From positions 2,232,001-2,296,000 of the forward strand of contig NZ_JASF01000005.1 in assembly GCF_000622405.1 (NCBI RefSeq): DNA of 64,000 nucleotides, in the 5' to 3' direction. The stretch comes from Sulfitobacter donghicola DSW-25 = KCTC 12864 = JCM 14565. GTDB taxonomy: Bacteria > Pseudomonadota > Alphaproteobacteria > Rhodobacterales > Rhodobacteraceae. Below, piece after piece: positions 5,049 through 20,690 of this stretch; within the stretch, counting starts at the first letter, position 1, and each line of letters starts with the position of its first letter. The notes below the pieces were generated by a model. The model was not told the origin of the DNA. It did no database searches and saw only the letters and a program-made list of their open reading frames with translations. A program made the translations under genes and the position numbers.

Positions 5049-5138
5049 GGAGACGTGGCCGAGTGGTCGAAGGCGCTCCCCTGCTAAGGGAGTATACCGG
5101 GAACGGTATCGAGGGTTCGAATCCCTTCGTCTCCGCCA
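5049..5138 (+). tRNA. tRNA-Ser(GCT)
   Basis: A 90-nt gene whose 7-bp acceptor stem pairs GGAGACG at the 5' end with CGTCTCC. It has a long serine-type variable arm, a TTCGAAT T-loop, an encoded CCA at 5136-5138, and anticodon GCT within CTGCTAA (reads AGC/AGU). Its last 17 bases are repeated at 11773-11789, which marks it as the attachment site of the integrative element downstream. Confidence 0.97.
5122..5138. repeat. attL core (17-bp direct repeat, left copy)
   Basis: TCCCTTCGTCTCCGCCA is the T-arm/acceptor 3' end of tRNA-Ser(GCT), including CCA. An identical copy lies at 11773-11789. Integration at a tRNA 3' end that preserves a working tRNA is the usual outcome for this type of integrase. 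Confidence 0.88.
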
Positions 5139-5151
5139 TTCAATTCTAAAA

Positions 5152-5200
5152 CAATGGCTTAGGTCTTGGACGTGTAAGTGCGACACAGAGTGGAGCACAA
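5152..5200. repeat. Left putative integrase arm-type sites
   Basis: Two motifs sit between attL and the integrase start: CAATGGCTTAG at 5152-5162 and GTGCGACACAGAGTGGAGCA beginning at 5178. Both recur just inside attR: CAATGGCTTAG exactly at 11747-11757, and GTGTGACACAAAGTGGAACA at 11691-11710 (17 of 20 bases identical). Matching motifs at both ends fit integrase arm-binding sites. Confidence 0.5.
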
Positions 5201-5203
5201 GCC

Positions 5204-6787
5204 ATGAAGCTGCCTGCCTATGTCTCACCGTCTAGACACGGTATCATGTATTTCCGTTGGCCGTTGCCAATGTCCTCAGATCGCAAGCGCCGATCAGTTC
5301 GGATTTCCTTACGCACCAAATGTCCAGATAGGGCTGGCGATCTTGCCAGACATCTTGCATCCTGTGGTCGTATTATCAGGGATAACAAGGCATTGGCACG
5401 GCTCAGACAAGACGAAATGCGGGATATGGTGCGCAGCTATTTCATGGCTTCGCTAGATCGCTACGTTGAAAAGCTGAATGATACCGGATTGCCAGATCAG
5501 ACATTGGACCTCATGCGTCAAGAGTTTGATGTTCATGAAGACGCTGGTGGCGGCTATGATGACCTTTCGGACCTTTTCCTTGATACGGGTACTGTGGACA
5601 GCTTTCGGGCGTCTGCGGGCCTCTCAGGCGCTCAGTGGGCTGAAAATGAACCTGCCCTGCGTCACGAACTGCGCAAAGCCCGCCGGGATCAAATCAAAGC
5701 CATTCTAAGCGCCGCTGAGCGCCTTGAGGGGTATTCCTATGATGCGGCGCAGGAAAGGCCAGTAGCGCCACCAGAAGCGCCCTCTGTGTCTCTGGGTAAG
5801 GCCGTGGATGATTTTATGGCAGAAAGTCGCCCGCAATGGTCAAGCCAGATGGCAAACCGAGCGCAGGCATTTCTGGCCGTCATGCTGGAACATTTTGGCT
5901 CAGATCGCTCAATGACAGAGATATCCCGCCAAGATGCCAGTGCCTTGAAGAAGATCGTTCAAGCCTTGCCCGTCAATCGGAACACACGACCTGAGACCAG
6001 AGACTTGCCCTTGTCAGAGGCAATTAAAGTGGCAGGTGTTCAAAAGGTGTCAGTTGAGACAATCAACAATCACATGGCAATGTTTCAACGCTTTGGTGAT
6101 TGGGCTGAGCGGCATGGTTATGCACCGAGCAATGTGTTCGACCGCATGAAGGTCGCCAAACCAAAGAAATCTGCACCGGGCCGCAAAGATTACACTCACG
6201 AGCAAACGGCTAAGTTGTATGCAGAATTAACGCAAAATCATGCAGGACTGGTCAAGAAAGACGATCACAAGTGGGGTGCATTGTTAGGGCTGTTCACAGG
6301 TGCACGGTTGAATGAAATTGCTCAACTAGCGCTTGCGGATGTGTGCTGTGAAGACGGCATTTGGTTTTTGAACATCACAGATGATGGCGACGACAAAAAG
6401 CGTCTCAAGGCGAATGCTAGTAGACGCAAAGTGCCGCTGCATTCTGAACTGATTAAGTTGGGTTTTGTCGAATGGGTGAAGTCACAAGAAAGCAAGCCGC
6501 GCCTGTTCATGTCTTTCAGTTACAATGCCAAGGATGGTTATGGCCGCAACCTTGGGCGCTGGTTCAACGGGCCTTTCCTCAAGGGACTGGGTATGAAAGA
6601 AAGCGGGCTGGTTTTTCACAGCTTGCGCCATACGATGGTTGAGCGACTAGCCAAGGCCGATGTCCCCGAGCCGCTTTATCAGGACATTGTGGGCCATGAG
6701 CGCCAAGGCGTGACCCAGAAATATTACAACAAAGGCGGGCATACGCTGGCGCAAATGCAAGACGCCATCGAACGGTTTTCCGCCTGA
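5204..6787 (+). CDS. Tyrosine recombinase (site-specific integrase) of the tRNA-Ser island
   Basis: This 527-residue protein catalyses integration and excision at the tRNA-Ser site. The C-terminal catalytic domain shows Arg368 in FTGARLNEIAQL, His472/Arg475 in HSLRH, His498 in VGHE, and the nucleophile Tyr507 or Tyr508 in QKYYNKGG. The N-terminus (YVSPSRHGIMYFRWPLP) resembles the short beta-stranded start common to alphaproteobacterial island integrases, and a SAM-like core-binding domain precedes the catalytic part. It begins 65 bp past the tRNA, inside the left arm-site region. All catalytic residues are present, so it should be active. Confidence 0.93.
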   Translation: MKLPAYVSPSRHGIMYFRWPLPMSSDRKRRSVRISLRTKCPDRAGDLARHLASCGRIIRDNKALARLRQDEMRDMVRSYFMASLDRYVEKLNDTGLPDQTLDLMRQEFDVHEDAGGGYDDLSDLFLDTGTVDSFRASAGLSGAQWAENEPALRHELRKARRDQIKAILSAAERLEGYSYDAAQERPVAPPEAPSVSLGKAVDDFMAESRPQWSSQMANRAQAFLAVMLEHFGSDRSMTEISRQDASALKKIVQALPVNRNTRPETRDLPLSEAIKVAGVQKVSVETINNHMAMFQRFGDWAERHGYAPSNVFDRMKVAKPKKSAPGRKDYTHEQTAKLYAELTQNHAGLVKKDDHKWGALLGLFTGARLNEIAQLALADVCCEDGIWFLNITDDGDDKKRLKANASRRKVPLHSELIKLGFVEWVKSQESKPRLFMSFSYNAKDGYGRNLGRWFNGPFLKGLGMKESGLVFHSLRHTMVERLAKADVPEPLYQDIVGHERQGVTQKYYNKGGHTLAQMQDAIERFSA

Positions 6788-7928
6788 TACCCGTTGATTT
6801 CTAGACAGCCAAGCTGAGCTACTAATAGTTATTGTGAGATAGAAATGAGTGAATTGCCTTCAAGCCTTTACCTTCACGGATATGAAGCATCAGAACAGCC
6901 CAAAGCTGATAACATAGACGACCCTCAGTATTGGGCAGACACGTTCCATAAAGCTAAGTTAAGCTTGGAAATAGCCTTGCGTATCCATGACCCACTTTGC
7001 CTGCTTGCTCGCACAACATCTCTTTGCAATGTAGAAGGAGGGCTGAAGAAAAGAGGCCCTGAGACCATCACCCTACCAGCACTAGAAGTTCTTCAGGCAA
7101 TGCTTTTGCGTCAACGTGAGACGATCGCACGAGTTCCATTATCGCCCAATAATTTTGTCAGAACTTGGAGCACTGCTGAGAGCTTGCTTGATGCTTTTAT
7201 TCGCATGCAGCCGCGAGACAAAGAAGATGCTCTTTCAGAAATGGCAAACCGCTCACGCATGCAGACCATACATTATCGGTTCAATTTCGACCGTGATGCA
7301 GCATTAGCCGTAATCAAAAAGATCACTTCTCGATTTGATCAAAAGACACAATGTAGTCACCAGCTAGAGAAACGAATTTTCTCGCTCTTCGCCTTGATGG
7401 ACATCACAGTGCAGCGGCTTCACGAGTTTTATGATCGGGTCCAAGAGATTTATGAAGCAACGGAGCGCAGTACGGTTATTTCTGGGGTTGAATTTCTTTG
7501 TGAGAAAAGCCCGCTCGCATACCATACTTGGCAGCGGGTTGACCTTAGCGCTATTGACGACGGAACGCTTCAGTTCCTAGCATTCCAATTGTCAGAAATC
7601 TCTCATGAGTGGATTTATACATTTGCACCTGATGACCTGTCGGAACTTGATCGCGACACTGTTTCAAAGCTATCGGCAAAACAAGGTGATGAGGCCGATG
7701 GAGAGTTTGAGCATCTATTTATGAACAACCCAGTATGGGCCAAACCCTTCATCGAAAAGGATGATGGTTCATACTTCACGGCAGTTCCACATATCCCGCT
7801 GGCTTTTCCGTTTCGCATTATCGGGGCGTTGCTGCCTGAAGATGGCAAAACCCGCAAAGCACTATCAGATGCAAGAGCAGAAGCGTTGGAGGAGCTGATT
7901 GCCGAAGCTGTTCAGGCTGCAATGCCGT

Positions 7929-7970
7929 TGACCTGAGCCCCTAAAACTCCTCCAAATTTGTGTAGAGTCC
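7929..7970. repeat. IS left terminal inverted repeat
   Basis: Begins TGACCTGAGCCCC and includes CTCCTCC and GAGTCC blocks. These match the reverse complement of 9109-9149 (TGACCTGTGCCCC...CTCCTCC...GAGTCC) with a few mismatches and one 1-base length difference. Confidence 0.88.
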
Positions 7971-7991
7971 GCCCAACAAAAGGACGGACAA

Positions 7992-8255
7992 ATGAAGGCA
8001 CGATTTACGGATGAACAGATCATTGCGATGATCAAGGAACAGGAAGCTGGCGAGAAGACCGCTGATGTATGTCGGCGGCATGGGATCAGCTCAGCGACGT
8101 TTTACAAATACAAATCAAAGTATGGCGGCATGGAACCGTCTGATGCGAAGCGTTTGCGGGCACTTGAGGATGAGAATGGCAAGCTGAAGAAGCTGCTAGC
8201 GGAGCAGATGCTGGACAACGCCATGCTGCGAGATATCAATTCAAAAAAGTGGTGA
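7992..8255 (+). CDS. IS3-family transposase OrfA (helix-turn-helix subunit)
   Basis: This 87-residue protein has the typical OrfA layout. An N-terminal helix-turn-helix ([13 protein letters not shown]...[22 protein letters not shown]) is followed by a leucine-rich coiled region ([18 protein letters not shown]) for multimerisation. The slippery sequence A-AAA-AAG at 8243-8249 sits just before the stop and overlaps the start of OrfB, so a minus-one frameshift should generate the OrfAB transposase. OrfA alone normally binds the ends and restrains transposition. Confidence 0.93.
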
Positions 8256-9088
8256 CGCCTGCCTTGAAGCGGAAAGCTGTGGCGCACCTGATGGAACAAC
8301 ATCAGGTCAGCCAGCGGCGGGCGTGTGATGTTCTGCAAGTTGATCGGTCATCGGTTCGGTACCTATCGCGACGCAGCGATGATGCTGAACTAAGAGACGC
8401 TATCAAACGCGTTTCGAGAGAACGTCGACGGTTTGGGTGCCGCCGTGTCCATGTGATGATCGCGCGGGAGGGTTTCGAGGTGAACCACAAAAAGGTCAGG
8501 CGCATCTACCGCGAAGAGAAGCTGCAGGTGCGCCGCAGAGGCGGCAGAAAGCGCGCTTTGGGCACAAGGAAACCGATGGTACTGCCCGACGGTCCGAACC
8601 AACGCTGGAGCTTGGATTTCGTATCAGACGCGCTGACAGACGGACGTCGCTTCCGCATTCTTGCCGTCGTGGATGATTACAGTCGGGAGAACCTAGTGTT
8701 GGTCGCGGACACGTCTCTTTCAGGACATCGTGTCGTGCGTGAGCTGGGTAAGATCATCGCTGAACGCGGTATGCCGAAGACAATTGTGTCGGACAACGGC
8801 ACCGAGTTCACCAGCATGGCGATCCTCAAATGGGTTCAGGATACAGGCATTGATTGGCATTACATCGCGCCTGGAAAGCCCCAGCAAAACGGCTTCGTCG
8901 AAAGCTTCAACGGTAAGCTGCGGGATGAATGCCTCAATGAAACGCTCTTCGGCACATTGCGCGAAGCCCGACAAACGCTGGAGGAATGGCAAGAAGACTA
9001 TAACTGGCGCAGACCACATTCAGCTTTGGGCAACCTGACGCCCATGGAATTTTTGCAGAGAAAGACAATGGACAAAATGGCTGCCTAA
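8249..9088 (+). CDS. IS3-family transposase OrfB (DDE integrase domain)
   Basis: This 279-residue product is read by frameshift from OrfA or from its own GTG. An N-terminal HTH_21-type region ([20 protein letters not shown]) precedes the rve/DDE catalytic core. The catalytic residues are visible: Asp in SLDFVSD, Asp in VSDNGTEF, and Glu in [12 protein letters not shown]. The C-terminal [10 protein letters not shown] signature is typical of IS3 OrfB. The reading frame is undamaged, so the element is probably mobile. Confidence 0.93.
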
Positions 9089-9108
9089 GGCCAAAGATTT
9101 AACCCCAA

Positions 9109-9149
9109 GGACTCCGCGCCAAGCTGGAGGAGACTTGGGGCACAGGTCA
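9109..9149. repeat. IS right terminal inverted repeat
   Basis: The right end finishes GGGGCACAGGTCA at 9149, the inverted counterpart of the left end at 7929. The next four bases, CCGT, are the second copy of the target duplication. Confidence 0.88.
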
Positions 9150-10281
9150 CCGTCTGCCAAGGTTTATAGATCAGTCATCTGGGATGATCCAAAAGACGGG
9201 AAGGGCTACGAACATGACGTTGTCGCCGTGTTGGGCAACCAGATTTTCATGTTCGAAGCCAAGTCAGGAAAGATCAAAGAACCTGCAAGGCGTGGGGGTA
9301 TCCCATCGCTTAAGTCCACTTTGAAAGAACTGTTCGTCGAGCCTGCCGAACAATCGCAACGGCTTCAAGAGTACCTGAACGAGTACGGCAAAACCGCACA
9401 ACTAAGTCAAAAGGGTTCGAAAGAGCCTGTTGATATTGACCTAACCAAGCCCAAAGCAGTTTATCGCTTTGGCGTCACTATTGAGGGTCTAGCGTCTCTT
9501 ACGGCTGGACGCAGATATTTTGAAAGTCTCGGGCTGATAGCAGGATCAAGCCCTTGGGCACCTTCCCTGTCCATCGGGGAGCTATTGATGATCGTCAAGC
9601 ATTTGGATAGCGAGGTTTCTTTTGGACACTATCTTAGTAGGCGTTACAGTATTGAAAGCCTGTTGGATTTTGTTGGTGATGAACAAGACTTGTTGTCCAT
9701 GTACCTCACGAATGGCTTTTGCGTTTTGGGTGATGACACACGACAAAACACACTTATTCTCGTGGATGCGGATGACATGGTGCGAACACCCAAAACACCA
9801 GTCGATGATAGGCGGAATTGTGATATTTCTGGGGTGCAACTTGCACCGCGCTGGAAGTCTATTGTTCGTGAGGTCTATGCTGGGCACCCAAAGATTGACC
9901 GACATAAGTTCGATATTATATTTGCGATATTGAACATGCCACCCCCGATGCTGATGCACTTACAACGGCGAATTGGGCGATGGAAAACCGGTGGAGGTGG
10001 ATCATCAAAGTCGGGCGAACACGCTAAGTATGCTGTTGGAGATAGGCAGTTTGTGGTTCTCTTGAACTACATGGACAAGCAACAATTGAGAACAACACAC
10101 GACATAACTGGTTGGTGTCGTACCATGGCAATGAGTGTCGCGGATGACTTTGAAGGCACTACCGATTGTGTTGTCGTGACGTTATACAAGCATTCGAGCA
10201 CAAGGACTTATGACGGAATATCCTTTTTCCGCGTGAAGCCCTCATCGTCAGGAAGGCTTGGCGCGACATTTTGAGAAAGGC

Positions 10282-10539
10282 CTATGTTGGCTTCTCATCT
10301 ACACTTGCAACCATTGTCAAAATTGCACTTGCCGTTGGCATTCCATCACAGGCCACCATCCATTTAACGAATTCAATTACATCCAGCCTACGCTCTTGCG
10401 TCTCGACTTTCGCCACAAAGGACTGCGGCTTGTCCAGACGCTGAGCCAAGCCAGCTTGGGTCAACCCTGCATCAAGGCGCACCTGCCTGAGCCGTTGGCA
10501 CAGGTAAACGTGTTCAGGTGTACGAAGTGTCTTGGTCAA
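10282..10539 (-). CDS. Small XRE-family helix-turn-helix regulator
   Basis: This 85-residue protein is almost only a Cro/CI-type DNA-binding domain: RLRQVRLDAGLTQAGLAQRLDKPQSFVAKVETQERRLDV holds the helix-turn-helix (LTQAGLAQRL...SFVAKVE). It converges with the split nuclease-like gene (7-bp gap) and is divergent from the membrane protein at 10665. It probably controls the shared upstream region at 10540-10664, where TTAGGATA occurs twice. No toxin partner is adjacent on the same strand, so an antitoxin role is not supported. Confidence 0.85.
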   Translation of the reverse strand: MTKTLRTPEHVYLCQRLRQVRLDAGLTQAGLAQRLDKPQSFVAKVETQERRLDVIEFVKWMVACDGMPTASAILTMVASVDEKPT

Positions 10540-10569
10540 ATGACTGCCTGTTGATTGAGTTCAGGCAAT

Positions 10570-10607
10570 CGGATAATCCCAAGTTAGGATAATACCATTT
10601 TAGGATA
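10570..10607. promoter_or_regulatory. Candidate operator repeats between XRE regulator and membrane protein
   Basis: The divergent interval holds TTAGGATA at 10584-10591 and again at 10600-10607 (16-bp spacing). A short palindrome, GGATAATCC, lies at 10571-10579. Repeated half-sites next to a small XRE gene fit autoregulation. No binding evidence is available. Confidence 0.35.
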
Positions 10608-10664
10608 TTGATCTTATCTCAGCCTAAGAGGTTGAGCTTGATCAGGCATTTGAAAGGTCATCAC

Positions 10665-11363
10665 ATGTGGATTGTCGCAATTTTCTGCGTCGCTGGGTTT
10701 CTTCTGTGGCAAAGCAGCAAGCGCCGTGCGCAGCGGTTTGTGCGGTCTGTGTTCTTTCTTGAAATCATCGACAGTGGGGCGAGCACAGATACCGCAAACG
10801 GCCAAGTGGCACGATTGTTCACCAAGCATTCAAGTGCGGATAAAGACAACGCCGCCATTCGGCACGCAATGGACAAAGCAAACAGGCTAACGGATGGAAA
10901 GCAACTTCCATGGATACAGGAGGCTCGCGAGAAGGGCTTCGCAATCGACAGCGGAGATAGCCGAATTGACATGGCACATCTTGCTCAATCGCAATCGCGC
11001 ACCAATCCAGATCAAAATTTTACAGGACATTTTTCCGAAGGGGAATACATACAACCAAAAGGCGCACAGTTCCCCCATGCCCTGCCGGGATTGTCAGAGG
11101 CGTACCACGTTGGCCTTGAGCACATAGAAGCGAACAAAGGTAAGCTGGTGCCTACTATCAAAGCCGTTGCCCGCATTGGAATACGCTGGGCGCTATGGGG
11201 GGCTGTGGCGGGGTTCGCAATCGGCCTTGTGATCCCAAGGGTCGGCGTGTTCAGTTCTCTTGAGCTTTGGGCCGTACCAGTCGTTACGGCCTACGTCGGG
11301 GCCATGGCAGGGATTGCAATCGGAACCGTGTGCTGGGCCGTGCGTTGGGTTTATGGTCACTGA
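10665..11363 (+). CDS. Island-encoded membrane protein of unknown function
   Basis: A 232-residue protein from the ATG at 10665, which is preceded by GAAAGG. A TTG start 19 codons earlier is possible but has no ribosome site. It has one N-terminal transmembrane helix (WIVAIFCVAGFLLW), a hydrophilic region of about 140 residues, and a pair of closely spaced C-terminal helices (WALWGAVAGFAIGLVIP and VVTAYVGAMAGIAIGTVCW) with glycine-rich hairpin character. I recognise no family. Its position opposite the XRE regulator and beside the nuclease-like gene suggests island cargo, perhaps the membrane arm of a two-part system. That link is inference from location. Confidence 0.7.
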   Translation: MWIVAIFCVAGFLLWQSSKRRAQRFVRSVFFLEIIDSGASTDTANGQVARLFTKHSSADKDNAAIRHAMDKANRLTDGKQLPWIQEAREKGFAIDSGDSRIDMAHLAQSQSRTNPDQNFTGHFSEGEYIQPKGAQFPHALPGLSEAYHVGLEHIEANKGKLVPTIKAVARIGIRWALWGAVAGFAIGLVIPRVGVFSSLELWAVPVVTAYVGAMAGIAIGTVCWAVRWVYGH

Positions 11364-11388
11364 GGCATCGCCCGACCTTCTATGAGTG

Positions 11389-11534
11389 GTATCTGTCTGT
11401 TTTCCTGTGCCTTTTTGAGCTACGCACATATAGACAGAAAGAACCTAGCTTGGTTTGCGTTCTATTCCTCACATATAGACAGTAGGATGGCCCAGTATCT
11501 GTCTCGGTCAGTTATACCTTCATGGTATCTGTCT
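11389..11534. repeat. Cluster of CTGTCT/AGACAG repeats at the island right end
   Basis: Five copies of the core CTGTCT lie within 150 bp. GTATCTGTCT occurs directly at 11389-11398, 11495-11504 and 11525-11534. The inverted form CACATATAGACAG occurs at 11425-11437 and 11470-11482. This stretch of about 400 bp (11364-11772) has no convincing gene. The repeats could be integrase/excisionase sites or iterons. Confidence 0.7.
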
Positions 11535-11571
11535 ATTCCATTCCTGAATGGCTTTATGTAAATTATATATA

Positions 11572-11580
11572 TTATCCACA
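11572..11580 (+). promoter_or_regulatory. Consensus DnaA box in AT-rich DNA
   Basis: TTATCCACA, a perfect match to the consensus DnaA box, lies in a very AT-rich stretch (about 11550-11620) just after the CTGTCT repeat cluster. A single 9-mer can occur by chance. It is listed because of the neighbouring repeats. Confidence 0.35.
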
Positions 11581-11690
11581 TATATCAAAAATGTATAAGA
11601 TACTGATATTATAATGATTATTACACAATCACCTTTCTCAAATGAACTTATACTCAGATCACATTTGACAACATTACAATCCGGGCCGTA

Positions 11691-11757
11691 GTGTGACACA
11701 AAGTGGAACAACAGAGTAACCTTCGCTCTTGTATGTCCAGTTAAGTCAATGGCTTAG
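11691..11757. repeat. Right putative integrase arm-type sites
   Basis: GTGTGACACAAAGTGGAACA (11691-11710) and CAATGGCTTAG (11747-11757) repeat the motifs found at 5178-5197 and 5152-5162 beside attL. In the right copy the order along the sequence is reversed relative to attL. Confidence 0.5.
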
Positions 11758-11772
11758 AAATATGGTGGAGCC

Positions 11773-11789
11773 TCCCTTCGTCTCCGCCA
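11773..11789. repeat. attR core (17-bp direct repeat, right copy)
   Basis: Identical to the last 17 bases of tRNA-Ser (5122-5138). It marks the right limit of the integrated element. The following GAAATCCTAAATTT presumably is the original chromosomal sequence downstream of the tRNA. Confidence 0.88.
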
Positions 11790-11876
11790 GAAATCCTAAA
11801 TTTTATTAATTATATCATAAGTTTGGGGCTTCTCGCTGTTCTGGTGTCCCCCATTCCTGTTTGGCATGGTTGTCCC

Positions 11877-12770
11877 TCAATCTTGCGGCAAGTCTGGAAC
11901 AAATATCTGTTTGAGCGGTATCATAGAGCGATAGCGCGGGGCGAGTTGGGCATAGTGTTCGAAAATCAGCTCAACAAATTGTTCGCCGTTTATAAGCCTC
12001 AGCTTCGCGCGGTTGCGCTCCAACTCTACAGCACCGCGCGCGAATGACCCCAGATTGACGAACAGACCGTATTCGCCGTCTCCAAGTGTCCCTAACAACT
12101 GGTCTACGTCTGGGCGTGGTGTTTGGCCTGTGGTGCGCTTGCATTGCACTTTGACGATAGGGGGCTGGAATCCAAGCGGGTCCATATGAGCGATAACATC
12201 AACACCACCAACGCCGCTTTTCGGGGTGAGGCGCGCTGTGTAGCCCATACATTCCATCAAATGCGCCATGAAGTCCTCGAACTGGTGACCTGATAGGCGC
12301 GTCATAAACTGCTTTATGACGAAGTCGCTGGTGTTGGCCTCTGCCTGTACTGAGGCCGTAACGGTGGCTGTGTCGTCGTCTGTGGCGTCCTCTGCTGTGT
12401 CTTGTTCTGCACTGTCACTGGGCGAGGGCTCTCTGGCAGTTGGGTCAACCTTGCTTAGAAATTCGAGCGCAAACCGTCTAACGCGGAACAGGGTTAGGAA
12501 TGAGCCGATTTCATTAAGCGCACTTTGACTGAACTCACTGCGTGGGATGTGCTTCAACCACTCGACGCGCTGGCGGGTTGGGTAACCGTCTTGGTCTTCT
12601 TTGTCGTACTGAACTACGCCTGTAAAACGACCGATATTTACCATGCGGTCTGACTTTGACGGATACACGACCAAATCACCTTCTTTGATAACATTTGCGA
12701 ACTTGAACAGTGTGCCAGCATCAACTGGTATCGCACCCGCCTTTTTGTCAGGATAGGCGGCGGCACCAGC
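11877..12770 (-). pseudogene. 5'-truncated Mrr-like type IV restriction endonuclease
   Basis: The frame is open from about 12770 down to the stop at 11877, roughly 298 residues. The upstream portion reads through AAAYPDKKAGAIPVDAGTLF, a segment that belongs inside the Mrr N-terminal domain. The C-terminal catalytic domain is clear: GHQFEDFMAHLMECMGY, then GVGGVDVIAHMD and VKVQCKR, the D...QxK active site of Mrr-type enzymes that cut modified DNA. The true start and roughly the first 50 residues are missing because the gene abuts a truncated IS3-family remnant at about 12765-12774. A TTG at 12674 could start a shortened product keeping the catalytic domain. Presumed non-functional. Confidence 0.8.
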
Positions 12771-13217
12771 TTTGTCTGGACCCGAGAGGGTTGGCTGTCT
12801 CTAGCCGTGATCCTGGATTTGCATTCCCGACGTGTCATAGGCTGGGCTGTGAGCAACCGCATGAAGCGTGACCTCGTGATCCAGGCGTTGAAGATGGCCA
12901 TCGCGTTCCGGAAACCACCCAGAGGATCCATCCACCACACGGATCACGGTAGCCAATATTGTTCGCACGACTATCAGAAGATCCTGCGAAAGCATCGGTT
13001 CAAGGTGTGGATGTCACGGAAAGGCAATTGTTATGACAACGCAGCTGCCGAGACCTTCTTCAAAACCATCAAGGCCGAGCTGATTTGGCAAAGATCATGG
13101 GAAACAAGTCGACAAGCTGAGATGGCGATCTTCGAATACATCAACGGGTTTTACAATCCACGCCGCCGTCACTCAGCATTGGGCTGGAAAAGCCTGGTCG
13201 CTTCGAGCGAAAAGTGA
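12771..13217 (+). pseudogene. Truncated IS3-family OrfB transposase
   Basis: Readable from WTREGWLSLAVILDLHSRRV onward. It keeps the second catalytic Asp (HTDHGSQY) and the Glu (NAAAETFFKTIK), plus the C-terminal YNPRRRHSALGW signature. It lacks the N-terminal HTH and the first Asp that belongs just before the WTREGW segment. It cannot be catalytically active alone. The open frame from GTG 12807 gives 136 residues. Confidence 0.85.
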
Positions 13218-15354: not shown

Positions 15355-16119
15355 TCAAGGTTTGTTTGGGCTATGTTTTTGCAGCTTGGTTTTGCCGTCT
15401 GAAATCGACACGCCTTTGCGCCAAAGGTGATCTTGCATCACCGTCGGATACTGGCTGGCGTAATCGCGGAACCTGTCATTCGTCACAGCAAAACATATTG
15501 GCATGTATTTGAGGCACTCTAGTATGTATTTATCCGCTTGAACCCTACTTGGGACGACATAAATCTCGTCACGCTGAAGGCCGAAAATGTCTTCCAGCTG
15601 GGGCACGGAATGCGGTGTGCCACGCAGAAAAGCACCATGTCCGCCAAGGGTGTGGAAGATATTGGCATCAAAGAAACAAATGACGCGATACCCTTCTGAT
15701 CGCAGTTGCGCGGCAATTTCGCCCAACGGCTGGGCGTCTAGTTTGTTGTCGTGCCCGAAATGGTAAATATTGCTGCCATCAATGACGACTGATTTCTTGT
15801 CCAGCCTAAGATCCGCCATGAAACCCTGTCGGTCATTGTCTAGCAAAAAATGAGATTTTTTAACGCGCGGTCTTCTTACTCTGCGGAGTACAAACCACCA
15901 GAAGAGGGTTTGTGCCGTGAAAAAGAGCAAAGCCGTGATTGTGTCGACATCCGCTTGCCCGAATAACCACCAGATGGCCAGCGTAGAAATGCAAGCCAGC
16001 GACGCGCTGTCGATCAATGCCTTCAGGTGGCCCCCTATTTTCCTGCCGATACTAGGATTTGGGTTTTCGGCAGAACGTCGGGTGAGCACCTCTCCTAAGG
16101 TGATTGATTTGGGGGGCAA
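15355..16119 (-). CDS. Membrane-anchored NYN-domain (Zc3h12a-like) ribonuclease
   Basis: A protein of about 254 residues with two N-terminal transmembrane helices (residues roughly 38-53 and 60-77) joined to a cytoplasmic NYN/PIN-like domain. The nuclease core is visible as VVIDGSNIYHFG (first Asp), VICFFDANIFH (second Asp), QADKYILE and FAVTNDRFRDYA (acidic ligands), in the order of Zc3h12a-like NYN RNases. It would act as an Mg-dependent RNase at the membrane. It follows the MYG1-family gene by 13 bp on the same strand, so the two are probably co-transcribed. The start (TTG at 16119) is doubtful because no ribosome site is visible. Confidence 0.8.
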   Translation of the reverse strand: MPPKSITLGEVLTRRSAENPNPSIGRKIGGHLKALIDSASLACISTLAIWWLFGQADVDTITALLFFTAQTLFWWFVLRRVRRPRVKKSHFLLDNDRQGFMADLRLDKKSVVIDGSNIYHFGHDNKLDAQPLGEIAAQLRSEGYRVICFFDANIFHTLGGHGAFLRGTPHSVPQLEDIFGLQRDEIYVVPSRVQADKYILECLKYMPICFAVTNDRFRDYASQYPTVMQDHLWRKGVSISDGKTKLQKHSPNKP

Positions 16120-17068: not shown

Positions 17069-17483
17069 GGTTTAGTTCCAAGAATCGAGAAAATTTTAGT
17101 CGTGCTGGATTCCGATGAAAGAATTCACTCGGTGCTTTGTCAAAGCCCAGCAACCAATTCAAGTCGATTTTTCCCGTTCTACAAGAAGCAGCTTGGACGT
17201 CGCCCAATTGGTGTGCTGTTTTTGGCGGGATTGTTGTGGGGGGCAAACATAGGATTATAGCTTGGAAATACGCATTGGCTGGGGGGCTATGGCGCTACCT
17301 ATTTTCGGGAAAAACACCCTCATAGCGGGATCGGGCCTGTCCTTGAGGATTACCGTGTTACGGGTGCAATTCATACCTGCGATAGAAACTGGCGCGTTGG
17401 TCGGCAAGATTGCAGATTGAAGCTGCTGTTTTCTGGGTGGGGATGCTAAAGAGGTTCACCAACAGAACGCATCGGGAGAAGTT
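17069..17483. other. 415-bp divergent intergenic region without recognised gene
   Basis: It separates the MYG1-family gene (minus) from the reductive dehalogenase gene (plus). I see no convincing coding frame or known RNA. A GGGAGA ribosome site lies just before the ATG at 17484. The size would allow regulator binding, but no clear palindrome was found by eye. Confidence 0.5.
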
Positions 17484-20400
17484 ATGCGGTTGTTTTCAAA
17501 CAAGAACAGGCCCATCCATCTAGGGCCTTTCCCCAGCGAGCTGCTGGCCCGACGGTCTGACATGCCGCCCTTGAAAGACGTGCCGCAGCGCCAAGGGCTT
17601 TCATTTGAAAACAATCACGATCCGCGCAGCATAATTAATGCGATGGGGGAATATCAGGCGATGTTGGATGCCATTCGCCAAGGGAACAAGAATGCCCAGC
17701 CCGCTGCCTGCCCTGATGATCTGCAAGAGCGCGCAAATCACCTGAAGGCGTTCGGTTATTTTTCGGATGCAGCGGTGGTTGGCACCTGTTTGCTGCCCCA
17801 GAGCTCTATTTTGGAAACGCCGCTTCAAAACCCTGCGGTCCAGCGATTGGTCAATGCGTTGCAGACCCGTCAGACCAAAACACTGGCGGCTGGAATTGAC
17901 GGGATCATGGCCGATCTGCGGGATTCTGTGAATGCCTCCAAATCGGGGTTAGGCACGCATAGCCATGCTATTGTTTTTATGTATGAAAACCCCCGTGATC
18001 CTCAGCAGGATGAATGTGGAGGTGATTGGCTTAGGGGCGCGCAGGCCCATCGGGCTGGGCTTTTGGCGGCGGAAACGGCGGTTGTGATTGCCGAATACAT
18101 CAGGCTGTTGGGATATGACGCGCGCGCGCATACGGTGGCGGATGCTGATGTGGATTTGAACCAGTTGGCAGTGGCTGCGGGGGTGGCTAGCGTTGAGGAT
18201 GGCGCGTTGTACCATCCTTATGTTGGAACGCGGTTCGGTTTGGCCGCTGTGACGACGTCGTTTGCTGTTGCCACGGATTTACCTTTGGCTGAAATGGCGC
18301 AACAACCTGCCTCCGCTTTTGGCCGCAAATGGCGGTTTGGTGGCAGGTTCGAACGCAATGCCGCAAATGCGGTTCCATATGAAAACCGACGATTTGTTGA
18401 CGGCGCGCATCCGTTTGAAACGCTCAAAAGGGTTGATGAACCAACCACCTATATAGACGCGGCGCGGGTGGCACGTGTTCCTAAACGCGCCGATATGTTC
18501 GCGCGCGCGCAGTTTGGCGATATGGGAAAGCCTCTGCAGAAGGGCGCGGGTGGTGGGTATTACGCGCGCAAGGCGGCGCCTTCGATGGCACAGCGCCGCG
18601 CGCTTGGTGCGTTTGTTTTATTGCAAGACGGTGAACCCGCTCGGGAAAAGCAAGAAATCGCACCGCAAGAGGCTGCAGATTTGGTCAAGGCGACAGCCTA
18701 TTGGCTGGGGTGCGATGCGGTGGGGGTTTCGGCCTGTCCTGATTGGACATGGTATAGCCATGACGCCCGTGGCGACGTGTTGGTTCCGCGCCACGACCAA
18801 GCGATCAGCATGATCATCGATCAGGGCTATGAAACAATGGAAGGCGCCAGCGGAGATGACTGGATCAGTGTTGCGCAATCCATGCGCGCCTATCTGCGGT
18901 TTTCCCTGCTGGGGGGCGTGATCGCCCAGCAAATCCGAAATCTGGGCTATAGTGCCAAGGCGCATACGGTTCTGGATGGCGAGGTTTTGCAACCGCCGCT
19001 GTTGTTGCTGTCAGGTTTGGGTGAGGTCAGCCGCATTGGCGAAGTGATCCTGAACCCTTTTCTGGGGCCGCGTCTGAAGTCTGGGGTGGTCACAACGGAC
19101 CTGCCGATGGTGCATGACAAACCGATTGATTTCGGCCTGCAAAAGTTCTGCGAAAGCTGCAATAAATGCGCGCGTGAATGTCCTTCGGGTGCGATCACCG
19201 CTGGGCCAAAGCTGATGTTCAACGGCTATGAGATCTGGAAATCCGACAGCCAGAAATGCGCAACCTACCGCATCACCACACCGGGTGGGGCGATGTGCGG
19301 GCGCTGTATGAAAACATGTCCGTGGAATTTGGAAGGGCTGTTTGCCGAAAAACCGTTCCGCTGGGCGGCAATGAACCTGCCCGCGGCTGCGCCAGTTCTG
19401 GCCAAGCTGGACGATGCGCTGGGCAATGGTGGGCTGAACCCTGTCAAAAAGTGGTGGTGGGATTTAGAGCTGGATGAAAACGGCGGCTATCTTGCCGCCA
19501 AAAATCCGGTGAATGAGCGGTCGTTGCAAAAGGGGCTAGCGCTGAAATACGAGGATCAGACGCTGGCGGTTTATCCCGCGCCGCTTGCGCCCCCGCCGTA
19601 CCCTTATCCCTATCCGATGGACCGCGAGGCGGGCATTGAAGCGTATCAAGCGCTGGTCACTGCCGAAGAATATAAGGCCCATTTGACAGCCGGAACAATC
19701 GACCAAGTCGCCCATATCTATACGGCCGATGGGGACAGCCCTGTTATTCAAGTTGAAGTATCAAAGGTGGAACATGCTGCCGAGGGTGTCATCAAATATG
19801 AGTTTCGCGCCATCGACGGGTCCGACCTGCCGGAATGGCAAGCGGGCGCGCATCTGGACATCGTTGTAACGCCTGAATTCTTGCGCCAGTATTCAATGTC
19901 AGGCGATCCTGCGGATCGAAGCCGCTATCAAATCGCGGTCCTGCGCGAAGAAGACGGGCGCGGGGGCTCTAAAATGATGCAGCGCATTTTCCAGACGGGG
20001 CGGCGCATTTTTATTTCGCATCCGATCAACCACTTTGCCTTGGATGCTGGGGCACGTCACTCAATTCTGATGGGGGGCGGCATCGGGATTACCCCGATGA
20101 TTGCCATGGCGCATGAGCTACACGCCAAAGGTCAAAGCTTTGCGCTGCATTATTCAGGCCGTTCGCGCAGCGCGATGGCGCTGGTGGACGATCTGGCAGG
20201 GTTTGACTGGGCCGCGCATGTGCATCTGCATGTTTCCGACGAAGGCAGCCGCGCTGATCTGGATCAGGTGTTTCGATCTGCGCCAGAGGGCACCCATGTT
20301 TATACCTGCGGAGCCGAGGCCTATATGACCGCCGTTCTGGATGCCGCCGCAAAGGCTGGCATCCCCGAAGAGGCGCGGCACCTTGAATATTTCACGGTTC

Positions 20401-20690
20401 CAGAAACGCCTGACTATGAAAACCATGCCTTCACCTTGCGGCTGGCTAAATCAGGTCGTGACCTGCTGGTGCCAGCAGATCGCGCTGCAACGGATGTTTT
20501 GGCAGAGAATGGCGTTCACCTAGATGTAAAATGCAGCGATGGCCTGTGTGGTGTGTGTAAATGCGGGCTGATCTCGGGGGAGGTTGAGCATCGCGATTTT
20601 GTGCTCTCCAAAGCGCAGCGCGAGACAGGGGTGATCCTGTGCCAATCCCGCGCAGCCCAACCCGATGGTGTGATCGAGGTGGATCTCTAG
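17484..20690 (+). CDS. Self-sufficient (catabolic-type) reductive dehalogenase fused to flavin/2Fe-2S reductase
   Basis: A 1068-residue cytoplasmic enzyme with no Tat signal. Residues 1 to about 640 are RdhA-like, with an internally duplicated nitroreductase-like fold (AHTV near 216 and again near 494). Two 4Fe-4S clusters follow: C556-x2-C559-x2-C562-x3-C566 and C592...C605-x2-C608-x3-C612. The C-terminal about 320 residues are a ferredoxin reductase-type module (flavin site, GGGIGITPMIA near 866) ending in a plant-type 2Fe-2S domain (C1017, C1022, C1025, C1053). This matches the architecture of BhbA and NpRdhA, aerobic B12-dependent enzymes removing halogens from halophenols with NAD(P)H. 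Tyr424 and Lys492 may be the catalytic pair. No maturation genes lie beside it, and the substrate is unknown. Confidence 0.9.
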   Translation: MRLFSNKNRPIHLGPFPSELLARRSDMPPLKDVPQRQGLSFENNHDPRSIINAMGEYQAMLDAIRQGNKNAQPAACPDDLQERANHLKAFGYFSDAAVVGTCLLPQSSILETPLQNPAVQRLVNALQTRQTKTLAAGIDGIMADLRDSVNASKSGLGTHSHAIVFMYENPRDPQQDECGGDWLRGAQAHRAGLLAAETAVVIAEYIRLLGYDARAHTVADADVDLNQLAVAAGVASVEDGALYHPYVGTRFGLAAVTTSFAVATDLPLAEMAQQPASAFGRKWRFGGRFERNAANAVPYENRRFVDGAHPFETLKRVDEPTTYIDAARVARVPKRADMFARAQFGDMGKPLQKGAGGGYYARKAAPSMAQRRALGAFVLLQDGEPAREKQEIAPQEAADLVKATAYWLGCDAVGVSACPDWTWYSHDARGDVLVPRHDQAISMIIDQGYETMEGASGDDWISVAQSMRAYLRFSLLGGVIAQQIRNLGYSAKAHTVLDGEVLQPPLLLLSGLGEVSRIGEVILNPFLGPRLKSGVVTTDLPMVHDKPIDFGLQKFCESCNKCARECPSGAITAGPKLMFNGYEIWKSDSQKCATYRITTPGGAMCGRCMKTCPWNLEGLFAEKPFRWAAMNLPAAAPVLAKLDDALGNGGLNPVKKWWWDLELDENGGYLAAKNPVNERSLQKGLALKYEDQTLAVYPAPLAPPPYPYPYPMDREAGIEAYQALVTAEEYKAHLTAGTIDQVAHIYTADGDSPVIQVEVSKVEHAAEGVIKYEFRAIDGSDLPEWQAGAHLDIVVTPEFLRQYSMSGDPADRSRYQIAVLREEDGRGGSKMMQRIFQTGRRIFISHPINHFALDAGARHSILMGGGIGITPMIAMAHELHAKGQSFALHYSGRSRSAMALVDDLAGFDWAAHVHLHVSDEGSRADLDQVFRSAPEGTHVYTCGAEAYMTAVLDAAAKAGIPEEARHLEYFTVPETPDYENHAFTLRLAKSGRDLLVPADRAATDVLAENGVHLDVKCSDGLCGVCKCGLISGEVEHRDFVLSKAQRETGVILCQSRAAQPDGVIEVDL

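Follow-up and report, generated by a model that had tools for sequence, protein, structure and literature searches.

The window, that is, the whole stretch of 64,000 nucleotides of Sulfitobacter donghicola DSW-25 analysed in this work, includes a gene, rdhA, that is predicted to encode a reductive dehalogenase. It is placed between a MYG1-family gene and a CrtC/lipocalin-ABC group, an order common to the nearest relatives. The open reading frame proposed in a preliminary description of this DNA was recovered with the same start and end (Table 1). At the Rfam thresholds no cobalamin riboswitch or other RNA element was detected near rdhA, and a tRNA was the only RNA found in the window; sigma-70-type promoters and terminators were not above those of shuffled sequence. 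Following the MYG1-family gene there is a gene on the minus strand (15355-16119) whose 254-aa product contains a Zc3h12a-like NYN ribonuclease domain. The region 5049-13217, which carries a tRNA followed by a phage-integrase-family gene (5204-6787), an rve transposase (8249-9088), a Mrr-type restriction endonuclease (11877-12674) and a second rve piece (12807-13217), resembles a small tRNA-associated integrative element.

Table 1. Position of rdhA and of the regions encoding its predicted domains and motifs (coordinates of the window)
Feature	Position	Strand	Remarks
rdhA, predicted self-sufficient catabolic reductive dehalogenase	17484..20690	+	single ORF, 1068 aa, ATG start
GGGAGA, likely ribosome-binding site	17474..17479	+	4 bases before the rdhA ATG; assigned by eye
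Vestigial RdhA core copy, residues 159-268	17958..18287	+	matches residues 437-548
Catalytic RdhA core segment, residues 437-548	18792..19127	+	holds Tyr470 (18891-18893) and Lys532 (19077-19079)
Two 4Fe-4S motifs, C556/559/562/566 and C592/605/608/612	19149..19319	+	Arg596 (19269-19271) lies between them
PDOR-like reductase module, residues 754-1064	19743..20675	+	Pfam and structure matches
2Fe-2S site, C1017/1022/1025/1053	20532..20642	+	Pfam domain and homologue alignment

The RdhA domain was recognized by the NCBIfam model TIGR02486 'reductive dehalogenase' (199.1 bits, cut-off 160.35), and Pfam placed a 4Fe-4S double-cluster domain at residues 556-615 and a 2Fe-2S domain at residues 990-1057. 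The best solved relative is NpRdhA of Nitratireductor pacificus (4ras, 6zxu), aligned over residues 1-105 and 158-735 (E ~1e-157). For the C-terminal part, the same solved-structure search gave reductases, among them the phthalate dioxygenase reductase 2pia (E 2e-57), and the reductase part of self-sufficient P450s. A two-sequence search revealed the internal duplication (33% over 112 columns, E 4e-16). The internally duplicated fold, the C-terminal reductase with its 2Fe-2S domain and the positions of all twelve Fe-S cysteines had been read correctly in the preliminary description, as had the lack of a Tat signal, given that the RR.F.K motif is absent from the protein. An AlphaFold model built with 33 sequences, of middling quality (mean pLDDT 66.9) and weak around the Fe-S region, was used only to confirm the folds; in a fold search NpRdhA took ranks 1 to 14, a self-sufficient P450 rank 15, and 2pia rank 16. 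A respiratory RdhA was rejected on the basis of the missing Tat motif and of the Pfam-scanned neighbours, which are the MYG1-family and CrtC-type genes rather than rdhB.

In the alignment with NpRdhA, the residues Phe291, Ser422, Met423, Tyr426, Lys488 and Arg552 correspond to Phe339, Ser466, Met467, Tyr470, Lys532 and Arg596 of the window protein, so that the two 4Fe-4S motifs are accompanied by the Tyr/Lys/Arg catalytic residues of the self-sufficient RdhA type. Across all 167 aligned fused homologues, among them BhbA, there is no variation at these six pocket positions, at the eight cysteines of the 4Fe-4S motifs or at the four of the 2Fe-2S site. Tyr424 and Lys492, previously suggested as the catalytic pair, align instead with Tyr379 and Arg448 of NpRdhA; once the partners of Tyr426, Lys488 and Arg552 are renumbered as above, the alignment with NpRdhA and BhbA favours the earlier assignment to the self-sufficient catabolic RdhAs of brominated or iodinated phenols, which is the best reading of this protein. 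In the region of the second halogen, Ala419 and Asn452 of NpRdhA are replaced by Val463 and Val496 (Val in 136 and 138 of 141 homologues, respectively). In NpRdhA the change A419M moves the relative preference to a mono-brominated substrate and does not raise the absolute rate; for this reason, the valine at the equivalent position may matter. Among the 167 aligned proteins, the clade of the window protein showed no pocket residues that set it apart from the other fused RdhAs.

By its sequence, the window protein is a further member of the already described self-sufficient type represented by BhbA and JtRdhA (statements cited here from PMC10463259 and PMC13101508 refer to parts of these papers). 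BhbA, encoded in the plasmid pBHB of Comamonas sp. 7D-2 (WP_015585978), has the same domain order, is 50.6% identical over the whole length and shares all the key residues; it differs by having Ser and Ala in place of Val463 and Val496, and its gene lies on a soil plasmid, in a cluster that also has ligAB and a stretch resembling pobA. The one-chain architecture had also been attributed to NpRdhA, and this part of the comparison did not hold, given that NpRdhA is described as naturally truncated and devoid of the reductase (PMC10463259). Its RdhA part is 38-39% identical in the fold match and has the same catalytic residues, with fewer residues in common near the second halogen; the predicted fused PDOR module sets the window protein apart from this truncated type. 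JtRdhA of the marine bacterium Jhaorihella thermophila (WP_104007082) is alike in host habitat, one-chain RdhA-PDOR structure and absence of a Tat signal, and its six key residues are described as those of NpRdhA (PMC10463259), the same six that are present here; its activity has been measured, whereas that of the window protein is a prediction. JtRdhA carries FMN and base-off cobalamin, is driven by NADPH with a 1:1 coupling with or without air, and removes bromine and iodine from ortho-halophenols, while the chlorinated compounds tested inhibit it and are not turned over (PMC10463259). Its best substrate is 3,5-dibromo-4-hydroxybenzoate, relative to which the rates are 99% with 3-bromo-4-hydroxyphenylacetate and 50% with 3-bromo-4-hydroxybenzoate; E. 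coli W carrying JtRdhA grows on 3-bromo-4-hydroxyphenylacetate (PMC10463259). Ros_A3X954 of Roseobacter sp. MED193 also comes from the Roseobacter group, lacks a Tat signal and debrominates an ortho-bromophenol; in contrast, it is of the short type, with its Fe-S motifs at 283-345, and its activity is lost in oxygen (PMC13101508), therefore air tolerance of the window protein should not be taken for granted. In addition, strain MED193 encodes a fused homologue of full length that has 70% identity to the window protein.

From these comparisons we propose that the rdhA product is very probably a catabolic dehalogenase of ortho-bromo- and ortho-iodophenols; the presence of cobN in the host genome agrees with this view. 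By analogy with JtRdhA and NpRdhA in cofactors, electron path and halogen preference, the enzyme would be cytoplasmic, and the flavin of its C-terminal PDOR module would take up electrons from NAD(P)H and pass them on, by way of the 2Fe-2S center and then both 4Fe-4S clusters, to a base-off cobalamin located in the second RdhA core. Lys532, Arg596 and Ser466 would hold the phenol oxygen of the substrate, placing the ortho halogen on the cobalt, and Tyr470 would donate the proton as bromide or iodide leaves.

Homologues of the window protein are common: at least 3426 at E <= 0.001 were found in a protein search in which 7992 candidates were scored. In the genus, 32 of 35 genomes carry a full or near full-length rdhA (manual count), the copy of G027 being cut by a contig end and that of G029 split between two frames; the gene is absent from G004 (64% complete), G005 and G011. 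In the family it is present in 149 of 394 genomes, equivalent to 148 of 393 sampled genera (E <= 1e-200), and the 80 named records retained include Sulfitobacter, Roseobacter, Ruegeria, Phaeobacter, Jannaschia, Hyphomicrobiales MAGs and Granulosicoccaceae. The wide distribution of bhbA homologues within the Roseobacter clade has been stated before (PMC13101508). The host genome has no second rdhA above the cut-off; a Tateyamaria assembly has two fused RdhAs, L041 and L053, that are 74% and 70% identical to the window protein, respectively. Nine records named as γ-proteobacterial Granulosicoccaceae or Granulosicoccus (L042, L045, L049, L051, L057, L075, L086, L102 and L105) contain copies 67-72% identical, to be explained either by gene transfer from one class to another or by wrong binning of MAGs.

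The comparison of rdhA neighbourhoods included stretches from 100 genomes, of which 32 belong to the genus and 68 to the family; the latter were the best-scoring genomes for rdhA and are biased to closer homologues, since they were taken from the top of the match list. Eight loci for which gene calling gave no RdhA ORF of more than 500 aligned residues and ten that repeated a counted genome were dropped before the linkage counts. Over 167 distinct loci, no conserved rdhA operon was found. The commonest neighbour cluster in the set with one locus per genus occurs in 4 of 64 loci, the window counted, and the blocks in common, which include plain synteny of relatives, reach 15 of 32 loci among genus-mates and 10 of 83 in the named set. 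Nonetheless, hmgA, encoding homogentisate dioxygenase, lies close to rdhA in 10 of the 167 loci according to the ORF search; tblastn against the stored stretches raises the number to 12, with distances of 466-5343 bp and with hmgA on the upstream side in five cases and on the downstream side in seven. A random single-copy gene would be expected in 0.64 loci (flanks of 2,376,012 bp in all, not always full; Poisson values ignore kinship), and each of 15 control genes was found in one locus or none. Except for cobN and queG, the control genes bear names that we assigned; upon re-scan of eight, trpA, ychF, priA, ruvB and ftsH agreed, the one labelled leuS proved to be ileS, and two others had no match at the strict limit. 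A MarR-family regulator is near rdhA in 11 of the 167 loci (ORF search).

Three loci show a contiguous array of homoprotocatechuate genes and rdhA in the same direction, hpaE-D-G-H-rdhA: L062 (an Ascidiaceihabitans MAG), L041 (the hpa-linked copy of Tateyamaria) and L159, from the same genus. In all three, rdhA starts approximately 40 to 340 bp after hpaH and hmgA lies on the far side. Curated cut-offs were passed by HpaD in all three loci, by HpaE in L062 and L159, and by HpaH in L062; in L062 and L041 the HpaG-like proteins, although related, score below the cut-off, and the remaining hpa genes were placed by tblastn only. In a FastTree phylogeny of the 167 RdhAs (local support only; ORFs of less than 950 aa left out), the window protein belongs to a 52-row clade with support 98 that contains 11 of the 12 hmgA-linked loci (Fisher 1e-5, kinship ignored). 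The linked state requires at least 8 changes on this tree; therefore, the association of hmgA with rdhA is not one inherited arrangement. The two genes also tend to occur together: among 394 genomes, and with kinship ignored, hmgA is present in 131 of 149 genomes with rdhA vs 137 of 245 others (p 1e-11), and hpaD in 70 of 149 vs 55 of 245 (p 7e-7), whereas the control soxB goes with rdhA less (102 of 149 vs 145 of 245, p 0.07); the overlaps of hmgA and soxB were counted by eye. A literature search restricted to open-licence papers gave no evident report of hpa/hmg linkage to rdhA, and this linkage is a new clue to the role of an enzyme whose kind is already known.

The window itself does not show the linkage, the rdhA and hmgA genes of the host being about 230 kb apart. 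The view that rdhA stands alone was accurate for its immediate neighbours; elsewhere, the genome (3.54 Mb, 99.9% complete) has hmgA, pobA and cobN. Beside the host hmgA there are genes for a fumarylacetoacetase and for a FAD monooxygenase (NF006002) of the same family as that in the hmgA-linked loci; this region corresponds to positions 2013374-2018322 of contig C5 of the host assembly (G000; L123, L126). No hpaD was found in the host at E <= 1e-60, and no 4-hydroxyphenylpyruvate dioxygenase above the cut-off (22.6 bits vs 277). Given the latter result, homogentisate is perhaps made in this host from a hydroxyphenylacetate by the FAD monooxygenase, and not from tyrosine via 4-hydroxyphenylpyruvate dioxygenase.

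The hpa/hmg linkage in relatives points to ortho-halogenated acids of the 4-hydroxyphenylacetate or 4-hydroxybenzoate type, and we consider that there is about an even chance that the natural substrates are ortho-halogenated 4-hydroxyphenyl acids. In the window clade these would be brominated or iodinated, for instance 3-bromo-4-hydroxyphenylacetate derived from halogenated tyrosine-type compounds, and the dehalogenated acids would enter ordinary ring cleavage, in this host by the homogentisate or the 4-hydroxybenzoate route. Alternatively, the enzyme could be a broad detoxifying dehalogenase for the free bromo- and iodophenols of algae and worms, such as 2,6-dibromophenol and tribromophenol, tied to no particular growth pathway. 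The 155 of 167 loci without hmgA within the stored stretch and the absence of a conserved operon agree with this possibility, as does the proposal of bromophenol turnover by roseobacters in the Ros_A3X954 paper, which speaks of bromophenols in general (PMC13101508). We regard it as possible but somewhat doubtful, because JtRdhA, fast on the acids, acts on 2,6-dibromophenol at 6.8% of its top rate (PMC10463259), and because the hmgA/hpa linkage recurs on the tree, far above the controls.

It seems unlikely that the enzyme acts mainly, like BhbA, on a halogenated 4-hydroxybenzoate whose dehalogenated product would then be taken over by PobA. JtRdhA does prefer a substrate of this kind (PMC10463259), the host has pobA, and pobA lies close to rdhA in 6 of the 167 loci in the ORF search, or in 7 when the BhbA plasmid was used in tblastn; against this, the 52-row clade holds only 2 pobA-linked vs 11 hmgA-linked loci, and pocket positions 463 and 496 are unlike those of BhbA. 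An epoxyqueuosine reductase-like or other cobalamin reductase without a halogenated substrate is highly improbable: in spite of a common fold class (PMC10463259) and a weak match to QueG (TIGR00276, 22.7 bits vs a cut-off of 200), for which the QueG identity was rejected, the protein exceeds the TIGR02486 cut-off and keeps all six halophenol-pocket residues, and the host has its own QueG (L118, 421.6 bits).

In the part of the JtRdhA paper searched, no mention of a natural or physiological substrate was found (PMC10463259), and the hpa/hmg linkage gives the fused-RdhA family a natural-substrate hypothesis. Tentatively, and at somewhat less than even likelihood, the window clade of fused RdhAs may be the dedicated entry step for halogenated tyrosine- or hydroxyphenylacetate-type compounds in roseobacters; rdhA would then practically belong to the 4-hydroxyphenylacetate/homogentisate pathways, and aerobic debromination and deiodination would be routine in more than one third of the family's sampled genera. 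With a single-gene dehalogenase of this type in 148 of 393 sampled genera, if these enzymes are air-tolerant like JtRdhA, debromination and deiodination would be common in oxic seawater.
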